DNA of 43,927 nt from an uncultured Verrucomicrobiota bacterium (GTDB lineage: Bacteria; Verrucomicrobiota; Verrucomicrobiia; Limisphaerales; UBA9464), in the NCBI GenBank assembly GCA_903854475.1, contig CAINWP010000232.1:1-43927 (forward strand), written 5' to 3'. Position 1 is the stretch's first letter, and the number at the start of each line of letters is the position of its first letter. This document shows positions 3,499-17,894 of the stretch, piece after piece. The notes beneath the pieces are model-generated. The model was not told the origin of the DNA. It did not search any database and saw only the letters and a program-made list of their open reading frames with translations. Made by a program: the position numbers and the translations under genes.

Positions 3499-3530
3499 TT
3501 GACAGATTGGGTCCCGCCGCGGATTAACTA
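3499..3530 (+). promoter_or_regulatory. Likely sigma-70 promoter of the riboswitch transcript
   Basis: A perfect TTGACA lies at 3499-3504. GATTAACTA at 3522-3530 offers a weak -10 at 17-18 bp spacing. The predicted start would fall just before the aptamer at 3551, which is the usual geometry for a SAM-I leader. The -10 match is imperfect. Confidence 0.5.
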
Positions 3531-3550
3531 GCACTGCTGCAGGTAACTGT

Positions 3551-3677
3551 AGCGCTCATCCAGAGTGGCAGAGGGTACGGCCCTGTGAAGCCACGGCAAC
3601 CGGTGGAGCTGACGTGCTCGACGGCCAGGTGCCAAATCCGGTCGGAACTACAAAGTTTCGGCGAAGATGAGAAGCGT
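3551..3677 (+). promoter_or_regulatory. SAM-I (S-box) riboswitch aptamer
   Basis: The sequence shows the S-box consensus in order: P1 5' strand CGCTCATC (3553-3560), CAGAGTGGCAGAGGG, GGCCCTGTGAAGCCAC, GGCAACCGG, GGTGCCAAATCC and the P1 3' strand GATGAGAAGCG (3666-3676). P2 pairs GTGGC at 3565-3569 with GCCAC at 3590-3594. SAM-I aptamers bind S-adenosylmethionine and switch off methionine and sulfur genes. The P1 3' strand GAGAAG (3669-3674) can also pair with CTTCTC (3696-3701) in the terminator's 5' arm. That gives the standard switch: SAM bound keeps P1 and lets the terminator form, and no SAM lets GAGAAG act as antiterminator. The controlled gene is the ThrC-like enzyme at 3789. Confidence 0.94.
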
Positions 3678-3692
3678 CGGCTCCCTAGGAGG

Positions 3693-3721
3693 CCCCTTCT
3701 CGCTTTGCGGAAGGGGTTTTT
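3693..3721 (+). terminator. Intrinsic terminator, expression platform of the SAM riboswitch
   Basis: CCCCTTC (3693-3699) pairs with GAAGGGG (3710-3716) and is followed by TTTTTA. It lies 16 bases after the aptamer and 67 bases before the first start codon of the ThrC-like gene. Its 5' arm overlaps the hexamer that can pair with the P1 3' strand. Confidence 0.9.
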
Positions 3722-3788
3722 ATTTGCCCCCCACCGCGTCGGCTTTTTGGATGTGCGCTGATCGGTTGCCGCGGCGGTTATTTTTCTT

Positions 3789-5048
3789 ATGAGCCAGAGC
3801 AACGGATTCATGAAGGCACTGAAGTGCCGGGAGTGCGGACGAGAATACCCCCTGGGGGCCACACATGTTTGCGAGTTCGATTTTGGACCGCTGGAAGTGG
3901 CTTATGACTACGAGCGCATCCGCCAGAGTCTCACCCGGGAAACGATTTGCTCGCGTCCCCAGAACATGTGGCGCTATCGGGAACTCCTCCCGATTGCCGG
4001 CGAACCGACGGTCGGAGCCAAGGTAGGCTACACCCCATTAATTAAGGCAGATCGTCTAGCGGCTCGGCTGGGGATCCGCGAATTGTGGATTAAGAATGAT
4101 GCGGTCAACTACCCGACGCTGTCTTTCAAGGACCGCGTGGTGAGCGTTGCTCTGAGTCGTTCAGTGGAACTCGGATTCAAGACCGTCGCGTGCGCATCCA
4201 CGGGCAATCTGGCTAATTCGGTGGCGGCCAATGCCGCGGCCGCGGGCCTCCAGTGCTACGTTTTCATTCCCTCGGACCTAGAGCAGGGCAAGGTCGTCAA
4301 TTCTCTGGTCTATGGGGCGAATGTCGTCGCGATCCGGGGTCATTATGACGAGGTGAACCGGTTGTGTGCGGAGATCGCTGGCAAGTACGGTTGGGCGTTT
4401 GTGAACGTTAATATGAGGCCCTATTACGCGGAGGGATCCAAGAGCATGGGCTTCGAGATCCAAGAGCAGTTAGGGTGGCAGATTCCGGAACACACGGTGG
4501 TTTGCATGGCTTCCGGTTCCTTGCTGACCAAGATCCATAAGAGCTATCAGGAGTTTTCCAAGCTGGGATTGGTCCAGAGCCATGGGTGGAAAATCCACGG
4601 AGCCCAGGCCACGGGTTGCTCTCCGATAACAACTGCACAGAAAGCGGGGTTGGATTTCTTTAAGCCGGTGAAGCCCAATACCATTGCGAAGTCGTTGGCG
4701 ATTGGGACTCCCGCCGACGGCTTCTATGCACTGAAGGTCATGAAAGAGACCGGCGGCCACAGTGACGATGTCTCGGATGACGAAATTCGTGAGGGCATTC
4801 GGATGCTCGCAGAAACAGAGGGAATCTTCGCAGAGACTGCCGGCGGTGTTACCGTGGGTGTGGCCAAGAAGCTCATCGCTCAAGGCAAAATCCCGGCCGA
4901 TTCCAGCGCAGTGTTGTGCATTACTGGCAACGGCCTCAAGACGTTGGAAGCCATGCTTGGGCATTGTGGTGAGTCCCGAGTTATCAAGCCGAGCCTTCGG
5001 GAATTTGAGGCACTGTTGGCCTCAGATCAGGCTGAGGCGGCGAGTTAA
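3789..5048 (+). CDS. Threonine synthase-like PLP enzyme under SAM riboswitch control
   Basis: The 419-residue protein is a fold-type II PLP enzyme of the branch commonly annotated threonine synthase. An N-terminal zinc-ribbon-like segment has C13, C16 and C28, but the expected fourth Cys is D31 (CEFDFGPLE). The PLP lysine is K114 in LSFKDR, the phosphate and substrate loop is STGNLANS at 137-144, and ITGNGLKT lies near 378-385. The mid-region NVNMRPYYAEGSK and MASGSLLTKI differ from the SVNPxRxEGQK and GNGGN motifs that I associate with classical ThrC. It sits behind a SAM-I riboswitch and 44 bp ahead of a sulfur-carrier gene. I infer a role in methionine/homocysteine formation, perhaps using O-phosphohomoserine; threonine synthesis remains the conservative reading. 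ATG 3810 (MKALKCREC) is an alternative start; neither start has a clear Shine-Dalgarno. Confidence 0.85.
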   Translation: MSQSNGFMKALKCRECGREYPLGATHVCEFDFGPLEVAYDYERIRQSLTRETICSRPQNMWRYRELLPIAGEPTVGAKVGYTPLIKADRLAARLGIRELWIKNDAVNYPTLSFKDRVVSVALSRSVELGFKTVACASTGNLANSVAANAAAAGLQCYVFIPSDLEQGKVVNSLVYGANVVAIRGHYDEVNRLCAEIAGKYGWAFVNVNMRPYYAEGSKSMGFEIQEQLGWQIPEHTVVCMASGSLLTKIHKSYQEFSKLGLVQSHGWKIHGAQATGCSPITTAQKAGLDFFKPVKPNTIAKSLAIGTPADGFYALKVMKETGGHSDDVSDDEIREGIRMLAETEGIFAETAGGVTVGVAKKLIAQGKIPADSSAVLCITGNGLKTLEAMLGHCGESRVIKPSLREFEALLASDQAEAAS

Positions 5049-5092
5049 CGCTAATCGGGCTTCAATTGAGTTTTTTTTGATGATCCAAGGCC

Positions 5093-5365
5093 ATGGTTGA
5101 AGTTTTGATCCCGCCTCAACTCCGTCGACTGTGTGATGGTGAAGAGGCGGTCGAAGTCGGGCCCGGAACCCTTGGGGAGGTGCTCCTGCAATTGCAGGAG
5201 CGCTTCAATGGGATTTATGATCGGCTGTGCCAGCCCGACGGTAAGGTCCGTGGTTCAGTTCTGGTTCTCGTTAATGACGAGGATGTTCGGTTTCTTCGGG
5301 AACTTCAGACGCCTGTGTGCTCCGGAGATTCGGTGCGTCTGATACCCGCCTTTGCAGGCGGTTAA
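5093..5365 (+). CDS. MoaD/ThiS-family sulfur carrier protein
   Basis: A 90-residue beta-grasp protein of normal MoaD/ThiS length ending in FAGG. The free C-terminal Gly-Gly is the site that is adenylated and converted to a thiocarboxylate by MoeB/ThiF-type enzymes. SGDSVRLIPAFAGG is a typical C-terminal strand and tail. No residues follow the diglycine, so no protease would be needed to expose it. It follows the ThrC-like gene by 44 bp and has no own terminator before it, so it should also fall under the SAM riboswitch. No molybdopterin or thiamin genes are near, which argues against MoaD or ThiS proper and for a dedicated carrier, comparable in principle to CysO or HcyS. Its activating enzyme is not in the window. 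Confidence 0.9.
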   Translation: MVEVLIPPQLRRLCDGEEAVEVGPGTLGEVLLQLQERFNGIYDRLCQPDGKVRGSVLVLVNDEDVRFLRELQTPVCSGDSVRLIPAFAGG

Positions 5366-13262: not shown

Positions 13263-16200
13263 TTACGGGCTGATCAGGCGGAAGAAACGACTCTCTTCCG
13301 GTACCTCCAACGTGAGGGTGCTGAAGCCGTTGACATTGCGGATGGGGTCGCCCGCGTTGGTCCACGTGGAGAGGTTCGTCGAGCTTTGCAGCCGGTAGGT
13401 TTGTGTTCCCAAGGTGAAGCGCACGATGCGCAGGGCGGGTGCCAGGATCACTGTGCCATCCACTGCCTCGGTGGGACGAAGCGGGTTATAACCGAATTGG
13501 AGTTCTTGGGCATCTGGCAGTCCGTCGCCATCGGTGTCGGCAGTTTCGGGTGAAGTGCCGATGAGCAATTCGTAGCGGTCGTCCAGGCCGTCGCTGTCGG
13601 TGTCGCGAGGTTGAAGGGCTGCCACGGTATGGAATCCGCCGGCCGAGAACAGCAGGGCGCCATTGGCTGAATCGGGAATGAGGAGGGATCCGGCAGAATC
13701 TCCACCCCACGAAACAAGTTCACCTGAGTCGCGGAGGGCCACTGTATGATTGTAGCCGGCCTGGATGGCGACCACCCGCTCGAGTCCTGAGGGAATTCGC
13801 AACTGACCATCTCCGTTGCCGCCCCAGGCGACGACCGAGCCGTCGGCGCACAGGACCACCGTGTGGGAGTCGCCCGCAGTGACCGCGACGACGTTTTTCA
13901 AACCCGCCGGAACCACGCATTGACCGGCCCGGTTGTTACCCCAGCAGACGACGGTGCCGCCATCGAGGAGGGCGATGGCATGACTCCAACCAGCGGCGAT
14001 GGCGCGCACGTTTTGAAGTCCGGATGGGACATTGAGCTGCCCGTTGTAGTTGGTTCCCCAGGCCGTGACCGTGCCGTCGGCCAGCAAGGCGAGGCTGTAG
14101 TCGCCGCCGGCTGCGATGGCTGTGACCGGGGCACTGAATACCGGTGCGGTGGCTTGCCCAGACGTATTGCGTCCCCAACCGATGACATGTCCGTCGGCAT
14201 CGAGGGCCAGCGAATGGTTGCCTCCGGCCGCGACGGCCACGACGGATTGCAAGGTGTTGGGAACGGACAACTTACCGTCGGTCGAATCACCCCAGGCCAC
14301 CACGGTGCCGTTGGTTTGCAAGGCCAGCGTGTGCCAAGTTCCGGCGCTGATTTGGCGGAGTACGCCCAATGATTTCGGCACAGAAGTCTGACCGAGACTA
14401 GAGTCGCCCCAGGCCACGACGCTGCCCTTGATGCGGCCCTGGTCGGCGTTGCTGCGGTCAGGCCCCTGGAGACGGTAGAAGGCTTGAGTCGGGAGGGTAT
14501 TGGTGAAGCGGCGGGACCATCCAGCGGTCTCGCGATGGAGTTCTTCTAAATCTCCCCAGACCACGCCGTCTTGGGATCCCTGAAGACGGTAGCCCTCTCC
14601 GCCGAGTGTGAAGCTTCTCAGGGCGATCGACGGTTCGAGGCCCAACCATCCATCGGGTCGCTCTGTGGCGATGGCCGGATCAAAACCGTTTTGCAGTTCA
14701 GTTCGGTCGCCCAGTCCGTCGCCATCGGTGTCTGCGAGGCTCGGGTTAGAGCCGAGTCGATTTTCAATACCATCCTCCAGGCCGTCGTTGTCTGAGTCCG
14801 GGTCGGCAGGGTCGGATCCATTGGCCCGCTCAACGGAATCGGCCAACCCGTCGGTGTCTGCGTCGGGCGACCGTTGAAGAGCCACCAAGTGATGGGCTCC
14901 GGAAGCGAGTTGAACGATGTTTTTCAGCCCTGCAGGCACTCGAGAAACCGGGGCGTTGGTGTTGCCCCAGACCACCACTGATCCATCCGCGGTCACGGCC
15001 GCTCCGACCAAGGTGGTGGCAGCGATGGCCAGCGCAGGCATGGCCTGGGGCGAAGGGGTTCCGGTGGAGCCTGGGGTGGCTGTCACCGCGCCGTTGCGGT
15101 GGAGCAGGAGGCCTTGGTCTTCTCGCGAGGCAAATCCGACGACGCCCGTGAGGTTGGTGAGTCCGGGGCGACCCACCGTCCGGAATTGGCCGGAGGTACT
15201 CATCCAGCCTGAGGCGGTGGCACCGGCTAGGATGCGCGTGCCCGTGCGTCCATTCAGATTGGTTTGACCTGCTGTGGCGTCACCCCAGGCCCAGATTTTG
15301 CCATTTCGGTCGAGAGCCAGAGTGTGCAAGTCGCCGGCGGCGATGGCCATGGCGTTGGTGAGTCCGGCTGGAACGGTAGCCTGTCCCCAAGTGTTGTCGC
15401 CCCAGCAAATCACCTGACCCGCGGCGGTCAGGGCCACTGAATGAGCCGCCCCGGCGGCGATGGCCACCACGGAGCCCAGGTCGGTGGGGATACGAGCCTG
15501 TCCCTGGGAATCTTGTCCCCAGGCCACGACGGTGCCGTTGGTGCGGAGCGCTAGGGAATGGCCAAAACCCGCAGCCACCGCGGTGACGGGGCCAATGTTA
15601 CCGGGGAGCGTCGTTTGGCCGAAGGTGTCGTCGCCCCAGGCCACTACCGTGCCCACGATGCGTTCGGGCGAGGGCGATCGCTGGAATCGCAGGACTTCGA
15701 CCCGCAGATTGCGGCTGGTTTGGATCCGGTTGGTTGTATCGAGAGAGGCTTCCAGTCGGTAGATACCGCCTTCTTCAGGAAGAATGTCGTGCAGAACCAG
15801 GTTGGCGTTGGTCTGGCCTGCCAGGGCCTTGCCGTCGCGGAACCACTGGAATGATGGAGCCTTGGCGGCTACGGCGGGGGGTGTGGGAGGAGAATTTGTG
15901 ATGCTCCCGCCGGTACCCGTTCCCGGATCTGTGCCGGGGTCTGTGCCGGGGTCTGCATTCGGATCCACCGGCGGAGTCGGCGGTAGGACGACGGGTGGTG
16001 TCACCACGGTGGCGGTTGCAGTGGCTGGTTTCAGTGCGACTGCACGCAGGACTAGCCTGTCCCCGGCAAGGATTTGGCGATCGCGTTCCAGCAACTCAAA
16101 GACCGGATAACTCTCGGCTGAAAAAGGATTGGTTCCCGTCGCCAGTTCCGCTCCGTCCGGTGAACCATCGGAGTCGCTGTCCGGGTCCAACGGGTTAAGG

Positions 16201-17894
16201 CCAAGGCGCAGTTCTTCGGTGTCCGGAATGCCATCGCCATCGGAATCGCTGCTCTGAGTGAGTTGAGCCAAATCAGGAACGCCATCACCGTCGGAGTCGG
16301 GGGAGAGCGGATTGAGGAACAGGCGGAGTTCGATGCCGTCCTCCAATCCGTCTTGGTCGGTGTCCGGGACGACGGAATTTAGACCTAATGCAACCTCGGT
16401 GGAATCGTCGATGCCATCTTGGTCGCCATCGATCCGGGCTCGGATTCCCGCCGCGGCCTGGAATCCGGCGGTCAAGGTAAAGAGATTGGTCTGGGGAGTG
16501 GATTGGGCTGCCACGGCCGGGGTACCCCAGCCGACTGCATTGTTGGCAGCCGTTAGAGCCAAGGAATAGCCCGCACCGGCGCTGATCGCCACGGCTGGCG
16601 GCATCCGGGGCGGCGCCGGGACTTGCTTCAAGGCCGTGTCACCCCAGGCCAGAATGGCTCCCTCCCGGGACAGTGCGAGGGTGTGGTAGTCGCCTGCGGC
16701 AATCCGAGCGATGCGAGGAAGGTTGGCGGGAATTGCAGCTTGTCGCCGGTCGTTGGATCCCCAGCAGACCACAGATCCATCCGATTTTAGGGCCACGGTA
16801 TGTGCTGCGCCGGCGGCGATGGCCACCACTCCGGAAAGTCCGGCCGGCACCACCGATTGCAGGCTGCTGTTGTCGCCCCAACAGACGACGGTGCCATCGG
16901 GGCGCAGGGCCACCGAGTGGAAATGACCCGCGGCCACGGCGATGGCTTCCGTCGATTCCGGCGGAACGGCCGATTGTCCATAACGAGTGTCGCCCCAGGC
17001 CCGGACCATTCCATTGGTCAATATCACCAGGGTGTGAAAGGCCCCTGCGGAGATATTCTGAACTGGAGGCAGGCTGTTGGGGGTGCTGAGCTGGCCGAGG
17101 GTGTTGGTTCCCCATCCCCAAAGTTTTCCATTAGAATCGAGGGCATAGCCATGGACGAAGCCCCGGGCGACGGCGACGGCGTTGGTCAATTTCGGGGGAG
17201 TGGAGCCGACTTCTCGTCCCCAAACCGCCAGCTCACCCGACGATCTGGGGAATTCCCTTAAAGGACGGACTCCTAAGACATCAATGCGGGTCCCCTTGGG
17301 TTCGCGCTGAAGGGTGCTCTCCAATTGGGCCTCCAGCGTGTAACGACCGGATTCTGGGCGTTCGACGCCGAAAAAAACCAGGTTCACATTGGTTTGGCCG
17401 GTCAGGGACTTGCCGTCCCGGTACCACTGGTAGGTGGTGTAATTGGTGAGGATGGTGATATTGGTGGTGTAGGTCGGGGCGCTTCCGTCCGGCGGGGGAT
17501 CGTTGGTGACGATCGTGATGTTGGTCTTGAGCGAGAGGGGTTTGAGTGAGAGCGGGCGCAGTCGCAACAAATCACCGCTGAGCAACTGTCGATCCCGGTC
17601 GACGGTCTGAAAGAGGGGGATGCTGGTCTTGTCGCGGGGCAGCGTGTTGGCTGTGAATTCCGCGAGGTCGTTGGCTCCATCGCCATCCGTGTCGGCCACG
17701 AAGGGATCGCTGCCGAAGCGCAGTTCGAGGACATCGCTCAGTCCGTCCCCGTCAGAATCTGGTTCGGGGAACGCCTTCGCCCGGAACGAGTGCGTGGGGT
17801 TCGCACCTAAAAGAGCGAGGCCCACGCAGAACACCCCAAGGAGTGCCGAAAGCAGTTTTATCGAACGGTGAGGAAACAGTGGCAGCAAGCGCAT
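13263..17894 (-). CDS. Giant exported RCC1-repeat protein with thrombospondin type 3 and Ig-like segments
   Basis: This 1543-residue protein has a signal peptide (basic start, then LLSALLGVFCVGLALLGA). Roughly in order: a thrombospondin-3 Ca-binding segment (DSDGDGLSD, DTDGDGAND; about 45-75), an Ig-like region (about 95-210), RCC1-like block 1 (215-485), a TSP3 cluster (490-600), an Asp-Pro-Gly-Thr linker, a second Ig-like region, RCC1 block 2 (750-1030), TSP3, RCC1 block 3 (1170-1420), a last TSP3 pair and a C-terminal module ending FFRLIS. Each RCC1 unit reads like VVAIAAGxxHSLAL..GTVVxWGDN. Such repeats fold as beta-propellers, and the protein is probably secreted or surface-bound. No enzyme motif is seen. 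It is convergent with nothing and sits downstream of the HEAT lipoprotein on the same strand with a 168-bp gap. Confidence 0.88.
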   Translation of the reverse strand: MRLLPLFPHRSIKLLSALLGVFCVGLALLGANPTHSFRAKAFPEPDSDGDGLSDVLELRFGSDPFVADTDGDGANDLAEFTANTLPRDKTSIPLFQTVDRDRQLLSGDLLRLRPLSLKPLSLKTNITIVTNDPPPDGSAPTYTTNITILTNYTTYQWYRDGKSLTGQTNVNLVFFGVERPESGRYTLEAQLESTLQREPKGTRIDVLGVRPLREFPRSSGELAVWGREVGSTPPKLTNAVAVARGFVHGYALDSNGKLWGWGTNTLGQLSTPNSLPPVQNISAGAFHTLVILTNGMVRAWGDTRYGQSAVPPESTEAIAVAAGHFHSVALRPDGTVVCWGDNSSLQSVVPAGLSGVVAIAAGAAHTVALKSDGSVVCWGSNDRRQAAIPANLPRIARIAAGDYHTLALSREGAILAWGDTALKQVPAPPRMPPAVAISAGAGYSLALTAANNAVGWGTPAVAAQSTPQTNLFTLTAGFQAAAGIRARIDGDQDGIDDSTEVALGLNSVVPDTDQDGLEDGIELRLFLNPLSPDSDGDGVPDLAQLTQSSDSDGDGIPDTEELRLGLNPLDPDSDSDGSPDGAELATGTNPFSAESYPVFELLERDRQILAGDRLVLRAVALKPATATATVVTPPVVLPPTPPVDPNADPGTDPGTDPGTGTGGSITNSPPTPPAVAAKAPSFQWFRDGKALAGQTNANLVLHDILPEEGGIYRLEASLDTTNRIQTSRNLRVEVLRFQRSPSPERIVGTVVAWGDDTFGQTTLPGNIGPVTAVAAGFGHSLALRTNGTVVAWGQDSQGQARIPTDLGSVVAIAAGAAHSVALTAAGQVICWGDNTWGQATVPAGLTNAMAIAAGDLHTLALDRNGKIWAWGDATAGQTNLNGRTGTRILAGATASGWMSTSGQFRTVGRPGLTNLTGVVGFASREDQGLLLHRNGAVTATPGSTGTPSPQAMPALAIAATTLVGAAVTADGSVVVWGNTNAPVSRVPAGLKNIVQLASGAHHLVALQRSPDADTDGLADSVERANGSDPADPDSDNDGLEDGIENRLGSNPSLADTDGDGLGDRTELQNGFDPAIATERPDGWLGLEPSIALRSFTLGGEGYRLQGSQDGVVWGDLEELHRETAGWSRRFTNTLPTQAFYRLQGPDRSNADQGRIKGSVVAWGDSSLGQTSVPKSLGVLRQISAGTWHTLALQTNGTVVAWGDSTDGKLSVPNTLQSVVAVAAGGNHSLALDADGHVIGWGRNTSGQATAPVFSAPVTAIAAGGDYSLALLADGTVTAWGTNYNGQLNVPSGLQNVRAIAAGWSHAIALLDGGTVVCWGNNRAGQCVVPAGLKNVVAVTAGDSHTVVLCADGSVVAWGGNGDGQLRIPSGLERVVAIQAGYNHTVALRDSGELVSWGGDSAGSLLIPDSANGALLFSAGGFHTVAALQPRDTDSDGLDDRYELLIGTSPETADTDGDGLPDAQELQFGYNPLRPTEAVDGTVILAPALRIVRFTLGTQTYRLQSSTNLSTWTNAGDPIRNVNGFSTLTLEVPEESRFFRLISP
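15494..15505 (+). repeat. GAGCCTGTCCCT match inside the RCC1 gene
   Basis: An exact 12-mer, but on the coding strand it reads through Gly-Gln-Ala, a normal part of the WGQA unit of these RCC1 repeats. Weaker matches AGCCTGTCCC are at 15378-15387 and 16054-16063. The first of these also encodes Gly-Gln-Ala, so these copies may be chance. Confidence 0.45.

Follow-up and report, generated by a model that had tools for sequence, protein, structure and literature searches.

A probable MetM/MetO-type homocysteine synthase operon under a SAM-I riboswitch in an uncultured Verrucomicrobiota bacterium

This work concerns a short operon at positions 3,499 to 5,365 of a 43,927-nucleotide stretch of DNA from an uncultured Verrucomicrobiota bacterium (the whole stretch is called the window here; contig CAINWP010000232.1 of assembly GCA_903854475.1). 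In it an S-adenosylmethionine (SAM) riboswitch precedes a gene for a threonine synthase-like enzyme and a gene for a small sulfur carrier ending in Gly-Gly. Three described systems come close to it. In the CysM/CysO/Mec+ system of Mycobacterium tuberculosis a pyridoxal phosphate (PLP) enzyme is fed by the thiocarboxylate of a Gly-Gly carrier, and in the HcyS/HcyD/MetY system of Wolinella succinogenes homocysteine is made from a protein thiocarboxylate. The third is MetM/MetO of Streptomyces albulus, which works via O-phospho-L-homoserine (Hasebe et al. 2024, Appl Environ Microbiol 90:e01247-24, as relayed by PMC12172450). As PMC12172450 presents that work, MetM is a homocysteine synthase in Streptomyces, a SAM riboswitch lies upstream of metM, and there are cyanobacterial homologs. 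On that account this kind of system has been known since 2024, and the window locus is a well-supported new example of it. A literature search that was partial and short on subscription papers found no such system in Verrucomicrobiota among the matches listed. We believe, judging from sequence and gene order, that the unit in the window is very probably a MetM/MetO-type homocysteine synthase operon. Its parts are as follows.

3553..3673, + strand: SAM-I (S-box) riboswitch aptamer (RF00162, 70.7 bits against a gathering score of 44.4)
about 3691..3725, + strand: terminator hairpin and T-run, the proposed expression platform of the riboswitch (sequence reading and predicted fold)
3789..5048, + strand: MetM-like PLP enzyme (ThrC-like), a proposed O-phosphohomoserine-dependent homocysteine synthase (PF00291, TIGR00260, tree clade)
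5093..5365, + strand: ThiS/MoaD-type sulfur carrier ending in Gly-Gly, MetO-like, a derived 'AFAGG' paralog (PF02597, 3dwg, relatives in loci L040-L043)

The likeness to MetM/MetO lies in the layout, for as that system is described a ThrC-like enzyme, the sulfur carrier MetO and a SAM riboswitch upstream of metM go together as they do in the window. A Nonomuraea locus (L119), which we use by its layout as a stand-in for S. albulus MetM, falls in the clade of the window enzyme and has the same order of SAM-I, enzyme and carrier, the carrier ending in AVAGG; by eye a groEL-like frame lies further along. In a plasmid collection one actinomycete relative stood at 52% identity and the other 35 records at 30-37%. 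In Streptomyces coelicolor the genes are probably arranged much as in the Nonomuraea locus. The window differs in belonging to the Verrucomicrobiota, with 52-55% identity to the Nonomuraea member. It may also differ from S. albulus in its derived carrier paralog and, at the level of its genome, in a canonical carrier and NIL gene unlinked from the enzyme and in the lack of a detectable JAMM protease. The carrier is most like CysO, but the enzyme beside it is ThrC-like rather than CysM-like, its proposed substrate is O-phosphohomoserine, and its genome has no JAMM protein. With HcyS/HcyD/MetY the likeness is that tailed carriers in loci related to the window accompany a JAMM protease; on the other hand MetY is a PF01053 enzyme, of which the window genome has none, and the window carrier ends exactly in GG.

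An initial annotation of the locus had read it as a SAM-I aptamer with a terminator, a PLP enzyme of the threonine synthase type and, 44 bp past that gene, a Gly-Gly carrier ending in FAGG. These readings hold up. Besides the aptamer match, the sequence from about 3691 to 3716, followed by TTTTTATTT, reads on inspection as a terminator, and the predicted minimum-energy fold of 3545-3730 contains this hairpin and is otherwise without the aptamer. A pattern scan listed neither the hairpin nor any sigma-70 promoter, though TTGACA can be read at 3499-3504. The enzyme (419 amino acids) scores 275.2 bits against TIGR00260 (thrC), above the cut-off of 167.1, 286.8 bits against NF006050, below the cut-off of 303, and 225.7 bits against PF00291. 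Its closest solved relatives are threonine synthases, by a profile search as well. ThrC structures score 109-186 bits (2zsj best, at 185.8), whereas neither cysteine synthase B nor 1wkv, the CysO-type synthase, gets above 35.6 bits. The carrier (90 amino acids, C-terminus IPAFAGG) matches PF02597 (ThiS) with 47.7 bits. Its best PDB match is 3dwg (E 2.3e-15), listed as a 9.5 kDa culture filtrate antigen, which we take to be CysO of M. tuberculosis.

The enzyme belongs to a clade of its own. Scanning genome contigs with a six-row alignment, we kept the best 80 loci (the named loci), which come from Verrucomicrobiota, Cyanobacteriota, Nitrospirota, Nitrospinota, Planctomycetota, Omnitrophota, Elusimicrobiota, Mariprofundaceae, Myxococcota, Thermodesulfobacteriota and others. 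Together with ten Verrucomicrobiota rows and Nonomuraea they make 91 clade rows, and in a tree with 21 rows of ordinary ThrC a single branch separates the two sets, with a Shimodaira-Hasegawa-like approximate likelihood ratio (SH-aLRT) of 99. This tree is a quick search with SH-aLRT values and no bootstrap, and it raised long-branch warnings, Nonomuraea and L002 included. The row nearest the window enzyme is L039; its contig is labelled Akkermansia muciniphila, its enzyme groups with Pedosphaera-like rows, and the bin is likely mislabelled.

Threonine synthases such as 2zsj and 1uim share with the window enzyme the fold family, the SFKDR motif and the proposed substrate. They differ in the substrate loop, as had been remarked from the window alone: it is RPYYAEGSK in the window and NPxRxEGQKT or EGKKT in ordinary ThrC. 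The form RP[YF]YAEGSK is found in 77 of the 91 clade rows and in none of the 21 ordinary ones, and 12 of the remaining 14 clade rows carry RPYYSEGSK or RPYYGEGSK instead. An SGSLL-like motif (76/91) and VNxP[TS]LSFKDR (71/91) are likewise absent from all 21, and of the three motifs Nonomuraea shows the loop alone. Many clade members, though not Nonomuraea, also have a one-residue insert before PTLSFKDR. Among 193 Verrucomicrobiota genomes, each at least 90% complete, ten carry the clade, with matches of at least 588 bits and at least 63% identity. Outside the ten the next best match drops to 243 bits (37% identity), and identity there peaks at 41%. The ten genomes fall in 5 families and 6 genera.

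A further difference from ThrC lies in the genome of the window (4.44 Mb in 340 contigs, 97.3% complete), which holds a second ThrC besides the window enzyme. It is on contig C145, 35% identical, with the ordinary loop NPVRIEGQKT. A second ThrC-like match is present in all ten clade-bearing Verrucomicrobiota, the ordinary loop having been checked in the window genome alone. The family that includes MetB, MetC, MetY and MetZ (PF01053) has no match over the cut-off in the window genome and is matched in 14/14 control genomes, so a MetY-based route is rejected there. A DUF39-based route is rejected as well, there being no match to PF01837. MetX (TIGR01392) gave no match either, while MetA (PF04204) was not searched for; the MetX result means absence of similarity only, since the controls, with matches in 9/14 genomes, never exceed the 500-bit cut-off. 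The initial annotation had named a genome with no other thrC and with a full sulfhydrylation or transsulfuration route as the finding that would speak against its proposal. What the genome holds is another thrC, and PF01053, MetX and DUF39 are unmatched. A PF02574 match (302 bits) lies in a 1269-residue frame of the size of MetH, a methyltransferase that could in principle use homocysteine. A MoeB-rhodanese protein of the MoeZ/Uba4 type is encoded at C192:4829-5536 (ThiF 280 bits, rhodanese 52.5 bits). The sole JAB match, weak at 24.9 bits and counted over the cut-off together with its neighbours, was discarded as a JAMM protease because it is RadC.

The absence of PF01053 enzymes can be followed through the phylum. 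We call a PF01053 match strong when its E value is below 1e-30; in the survey of 193 genomes no best match falls between 1.9e-10 and 2.5e-33. Strong matches are absent from 10/10 clade-bearing genomes and from 4/183 others (Fisher p 6e-14). The effective sample is smaller than these counts, because the ten genomes come from 5 families and related genomes are not independent. The four others (G077, G106, G110 and G170), without a strong match and without the clade, may be incomplete, auxotrophic or users of another route. Beyond the survey, searches for PF01053 and JAMM covered 50 of the 80 named clade-bearing genomes, and 35 of these 50, whose completeness is not established, lack a strong PF01053 match.

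The neighbourhood of the enzyme recurs as well. A carrier motif was found in 10/10 Verrucomicrobiota clade loci and in 74/80 named loci, two patterns finding 72 each and 74 between them. Three of the six loci without one lie at contig ends (L054, L082 and L093), in L039 the carrier looks broken, and in L084 and L101 none was seen. None of 21 ordinary ThrC loci has the motif, a control that sees less of the linkage, with flanks of about 1.5 kb on each side against up to 4 kb in the named MetM loci. SAM-I lies upstream of the enzyme in 7/10 Verrucomicrobiota clade loci and in 40/71 scanned loci (17/19, 17/18, 2/17 and 4/17 by batch). In 39 of those 40 at most 165 bp separate it from where the enzyme match begins, and in L076 the distance is 1008 bp. 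It was found in 28/30 scanned named loci of the Verrucomicrobiota clade, in 0/7 scanned cyanobacterial loci, and in none of the 8 ordinary ThrC loci, out of 21, that the scan covered. The scan omitted L044, L060, L062 and L109, with fewer than 300 bases upstream, and also L080, L082, L083, L093, L101 and L117. The layout of enzyme, carrier and SAM-I recurs across phyla and is therefore no chance neighbourhood. Two strongly reduced genomes of 0.9 Mb (G057 and G036, loci L009 and L011) keep the enzyme and carrier; upstream of these no SAM-I exceeds the threshold, and the methyltransferase family PF02574 is unmatched.

Other genes keep company with the pair. A same-strand NIL-domain match lies no more than 2.5 kb downstream in 49/80 named loci (45 of the 69 that offer 1.5 kb of room). 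Of the Verrucomicrobiota loci 6/10 contain one, the window's not among them, and of the ordinary ThrC loci 0/21. The carrier is fused to NIL in L081 by Pfam match (PF02597 and PF09383), and by eye in L077, L104, L105 and L111. NIL domains are also found in MetN transporters. They occur in the DUF39 homocysteine route too (PMC5764234), and a link of NIL with such carriers was not found among the matches listed in our literature search. Near MetM, over 81 loci, we counted ThiF in 23, putative CysM-like matches in 24 (E 1e-5 or better), JAMM in 12 and ATP sulfurylase in 2. A strong ThiF match is present in all ten clade-bearing Verrucomicrobiota genomes.

Which carrier serves the enzyme is less simple. 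The window genome has four ThiS-family genes: the window copy, one on contig C313 and, by eye, one beside a putative MoaE gene and one that is ThiS-like. The C313 copy (L129, 1453-1764) is a canonical carrier ending in AIAGG, unlinked from the enzyme, and a NIL-domain gene (1737-2147) follows it. In L040 and L041 the two types stand in tandem, AFAGG then AIAGG; in L051 the order is SIAGG then AIAGG; in L042, with 828 bp of room, and in L043 only the AFAGG carrier turned up. The window carrier is of the AFAGG type, like those of L040-L043. Between L040 and L041 the nonsynonymous divergence (dN) is 0.29 for the AFAGG carrier and 0.12 for the AIAGG carrier. The window carrier stands at dN 0.29-0.41 from those of L040-L043, with synonymous divergence (dS) saturated, and the C313 carrier at 0.22-0.24 from the L040 and L041 carriers of the AIAGG type. 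The window carrier is thus a fast-evolving paralog. In L039, where the adjacent carrier has apparently decayed, the metagenome contig may hold errors. Because the AFAGG type changes faster and the adjacent carrier of L039 looks broken, the canonical C313 carrier, to go by these sequences, may be the main sulfur donor rather than the adjacent one.

The end of the carrier also bears on how the product might be released. We counted JAMM at E below 1e-12, counted carrier-NIL fusions (four genomes) as tailed and omitted G232, where no carrier was seen. Among the 49 named genomes that remain, JAMM is present in 24/24 with tailed carriers and in 7/25 with carriers ending exactly in GG. Of the ten Verrucomicrobiota, G121 alone has residues after GG (GG-ITEKFQI), and it alone has a strong JAMM match. 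Pooled, the counts are 25/25 tailed against 7/34 exact-GG (Fisher p 1e-10, a value inflated by shared ancestry); the exact-GG genomes G193 (5.4e-10) and G237 (1.1e-8), whose matches are weaker, were scored as lacking JAMM, and including them would give 9/34. In G121 (L010, L120, L130, L149 and L160) the JAMM gene lies just upstream of a 480-residue frame with ThiS and ThiF matches. The association is consistent with trimming of the tail by the protease, and we did not find the pattern among the matches listed in the same partial search of the literature. In the JAMM-free branch, the window genome included, the product may be released in another way. We would tentatively suggest, as a less than even possibility, that the system of this branch has no need of JAMM, that the NIL protein is a third component that docks to or regulates the carrier, that homocysteine is released free or cut from the carrier by other means, and that the carriers split further in the window's lineage, the fast-evolving copy being kept in the riboswitch operon. 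Elsewhere in the window, on the minus strand at 13263-17894, a 1543-residue ORF has many RCC1-like repeats by eye.

If the operon works as MetM/MetO does, low SAM would let transcription pass the riboswitch, going by the known SAM-I mechanism. The ThrC-like enzyme would then take O-phosphohomoserine to a vinylglycine intermediate of the threonine synthase kind, and sulfur rather than water would be added to that intermediate to give homocysteine. The donor would be a Gly-Gly carrier bearing a thiocarboxylate at its C-terminus, whether the adjacent one, the canonical one on C313 or both, and the MoeB-rhodanese protein seen on C192 would probably load it. MetH, whose gene is seen and whose role is taken from its family, would methylate the homocysteine, and the second ThrC on C145 would handle threonine.

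Other explanations have to be weighed against this. The profile above the TIGR00260 cut-off, the threonine synthases among the closest solved relatives and the Microcystis relative that PMC12172450 reports to make and deaminate threonine would all suit a second threonine synthase under an incidental SAM-I riboswitch, its carrier belonging to some other pathway. That idea fails to account for another ThrC in 10/10 genomes, for SAM-I control that recurs, for the differing loop motifs, or for a carrier linked to this clade and to none of the 21 ordinary ThrC loci. We rejected it on the presence of the other ThrC and the absence of strong PF01053 matches, and consider it quite improbable. More improbable still is that the pair produces cysteine from O-phosphoserine in the way of CysM and CysO. 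CysO is the carrier's best solved relative, and the CysM-like neighbours noted above point the same way, but the enzyme scores far closer to ThrC than to the cysteine synthases compared, which is why we rejected a CysM-type function. A SAM-I riboswitch, moreover, senses methionine supply, and cysteine synthesis would leave the loss of PF01053 unexplained. Free sulfide is a different matter. The enzyme could be an O-phosphohomoserine sulfhydrylase, with the carrier raising local sulfide or being accessory. Its product would be that of the carrier-fed synthase, and as the two readings overlap, the odds given here do not add to one. Sulfide served to mimic MetM activity in PMC12172450, the adjacent carrier looks decayed in L039, and the only JAMM candidate of the window genome is RadC. 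Against these stand a carrier linkage that is near universal, a strong ThiF match in every one of the ten genomes and a canonical carrier that persists on C313, and we think the sulfhydrylase unlikely.

A homocysteine synthase has its own difficulties, and it is important to set them out. What speaks most strongly against a role in homocysteine synthesis alone is the threonine activity in Microcystis. According to PMC12172450, the Microcystis ThrC shares 51.6% identity with MetM, adjoins a metO-like carrier gene, turns O-phosphohomoserine into threonine and has threonine deaminase activity as well; there is a second copy, thrC2, and the authors, who used sulfide to mimic MetM activity, doubt full MetM function in the cell. 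Strong PF01053 matches are retained in 15/50 named clade-bearing genomes, four of the six cyanobacteria among them. By the curated PF01053 cut-off alone 190/193 and 42/50 genomes pass and the contrast is gone; it depends on the wide gap in E values. For three of the ten Verrucomicrobiota members no SAM-I reaches the threshold. Nonomuraea sits on a long branch and has the RP[YF]YAEGSK loop without the insert or the SGSLL-like motif. The L039 enzyme is 96% identical to that of the window, and the carrier region next to it has indels and a stop. The initial annotation proposed that the enzyme makes homocysteine with the thiocarboxylate of its carrier. The homocysteine role is backed, at the level of sequence, by the clade, the loss of PF01053 and the second ThrC, while the adjacent carrier as main donor is unsure.

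What this work adds to MetM/MetO is a genome-scale test of replacement, a wide spread over phyla, a JAMM-free branch, the NIL neighbour and the split of the carriers. The tail and JAMM pattern and the NIL neighbour bear directly on the question of product release. Price et al. 2018 (PMC5764234) stated that at least one more route to homocysteine awaits discovery in other prokaryotes. If our reading is true, it would provide a route to homocysteine for Verrucomicrobiota without strong PF01053 matches, such as the Methylacidimicrobium tartarophylax genome (L075). Gap-filling tools that overlook the clade would probably report methionine auxotrophy for such organisms, and the results suggest that many genes named threonine synthase by profile models are homocysteine synthases.

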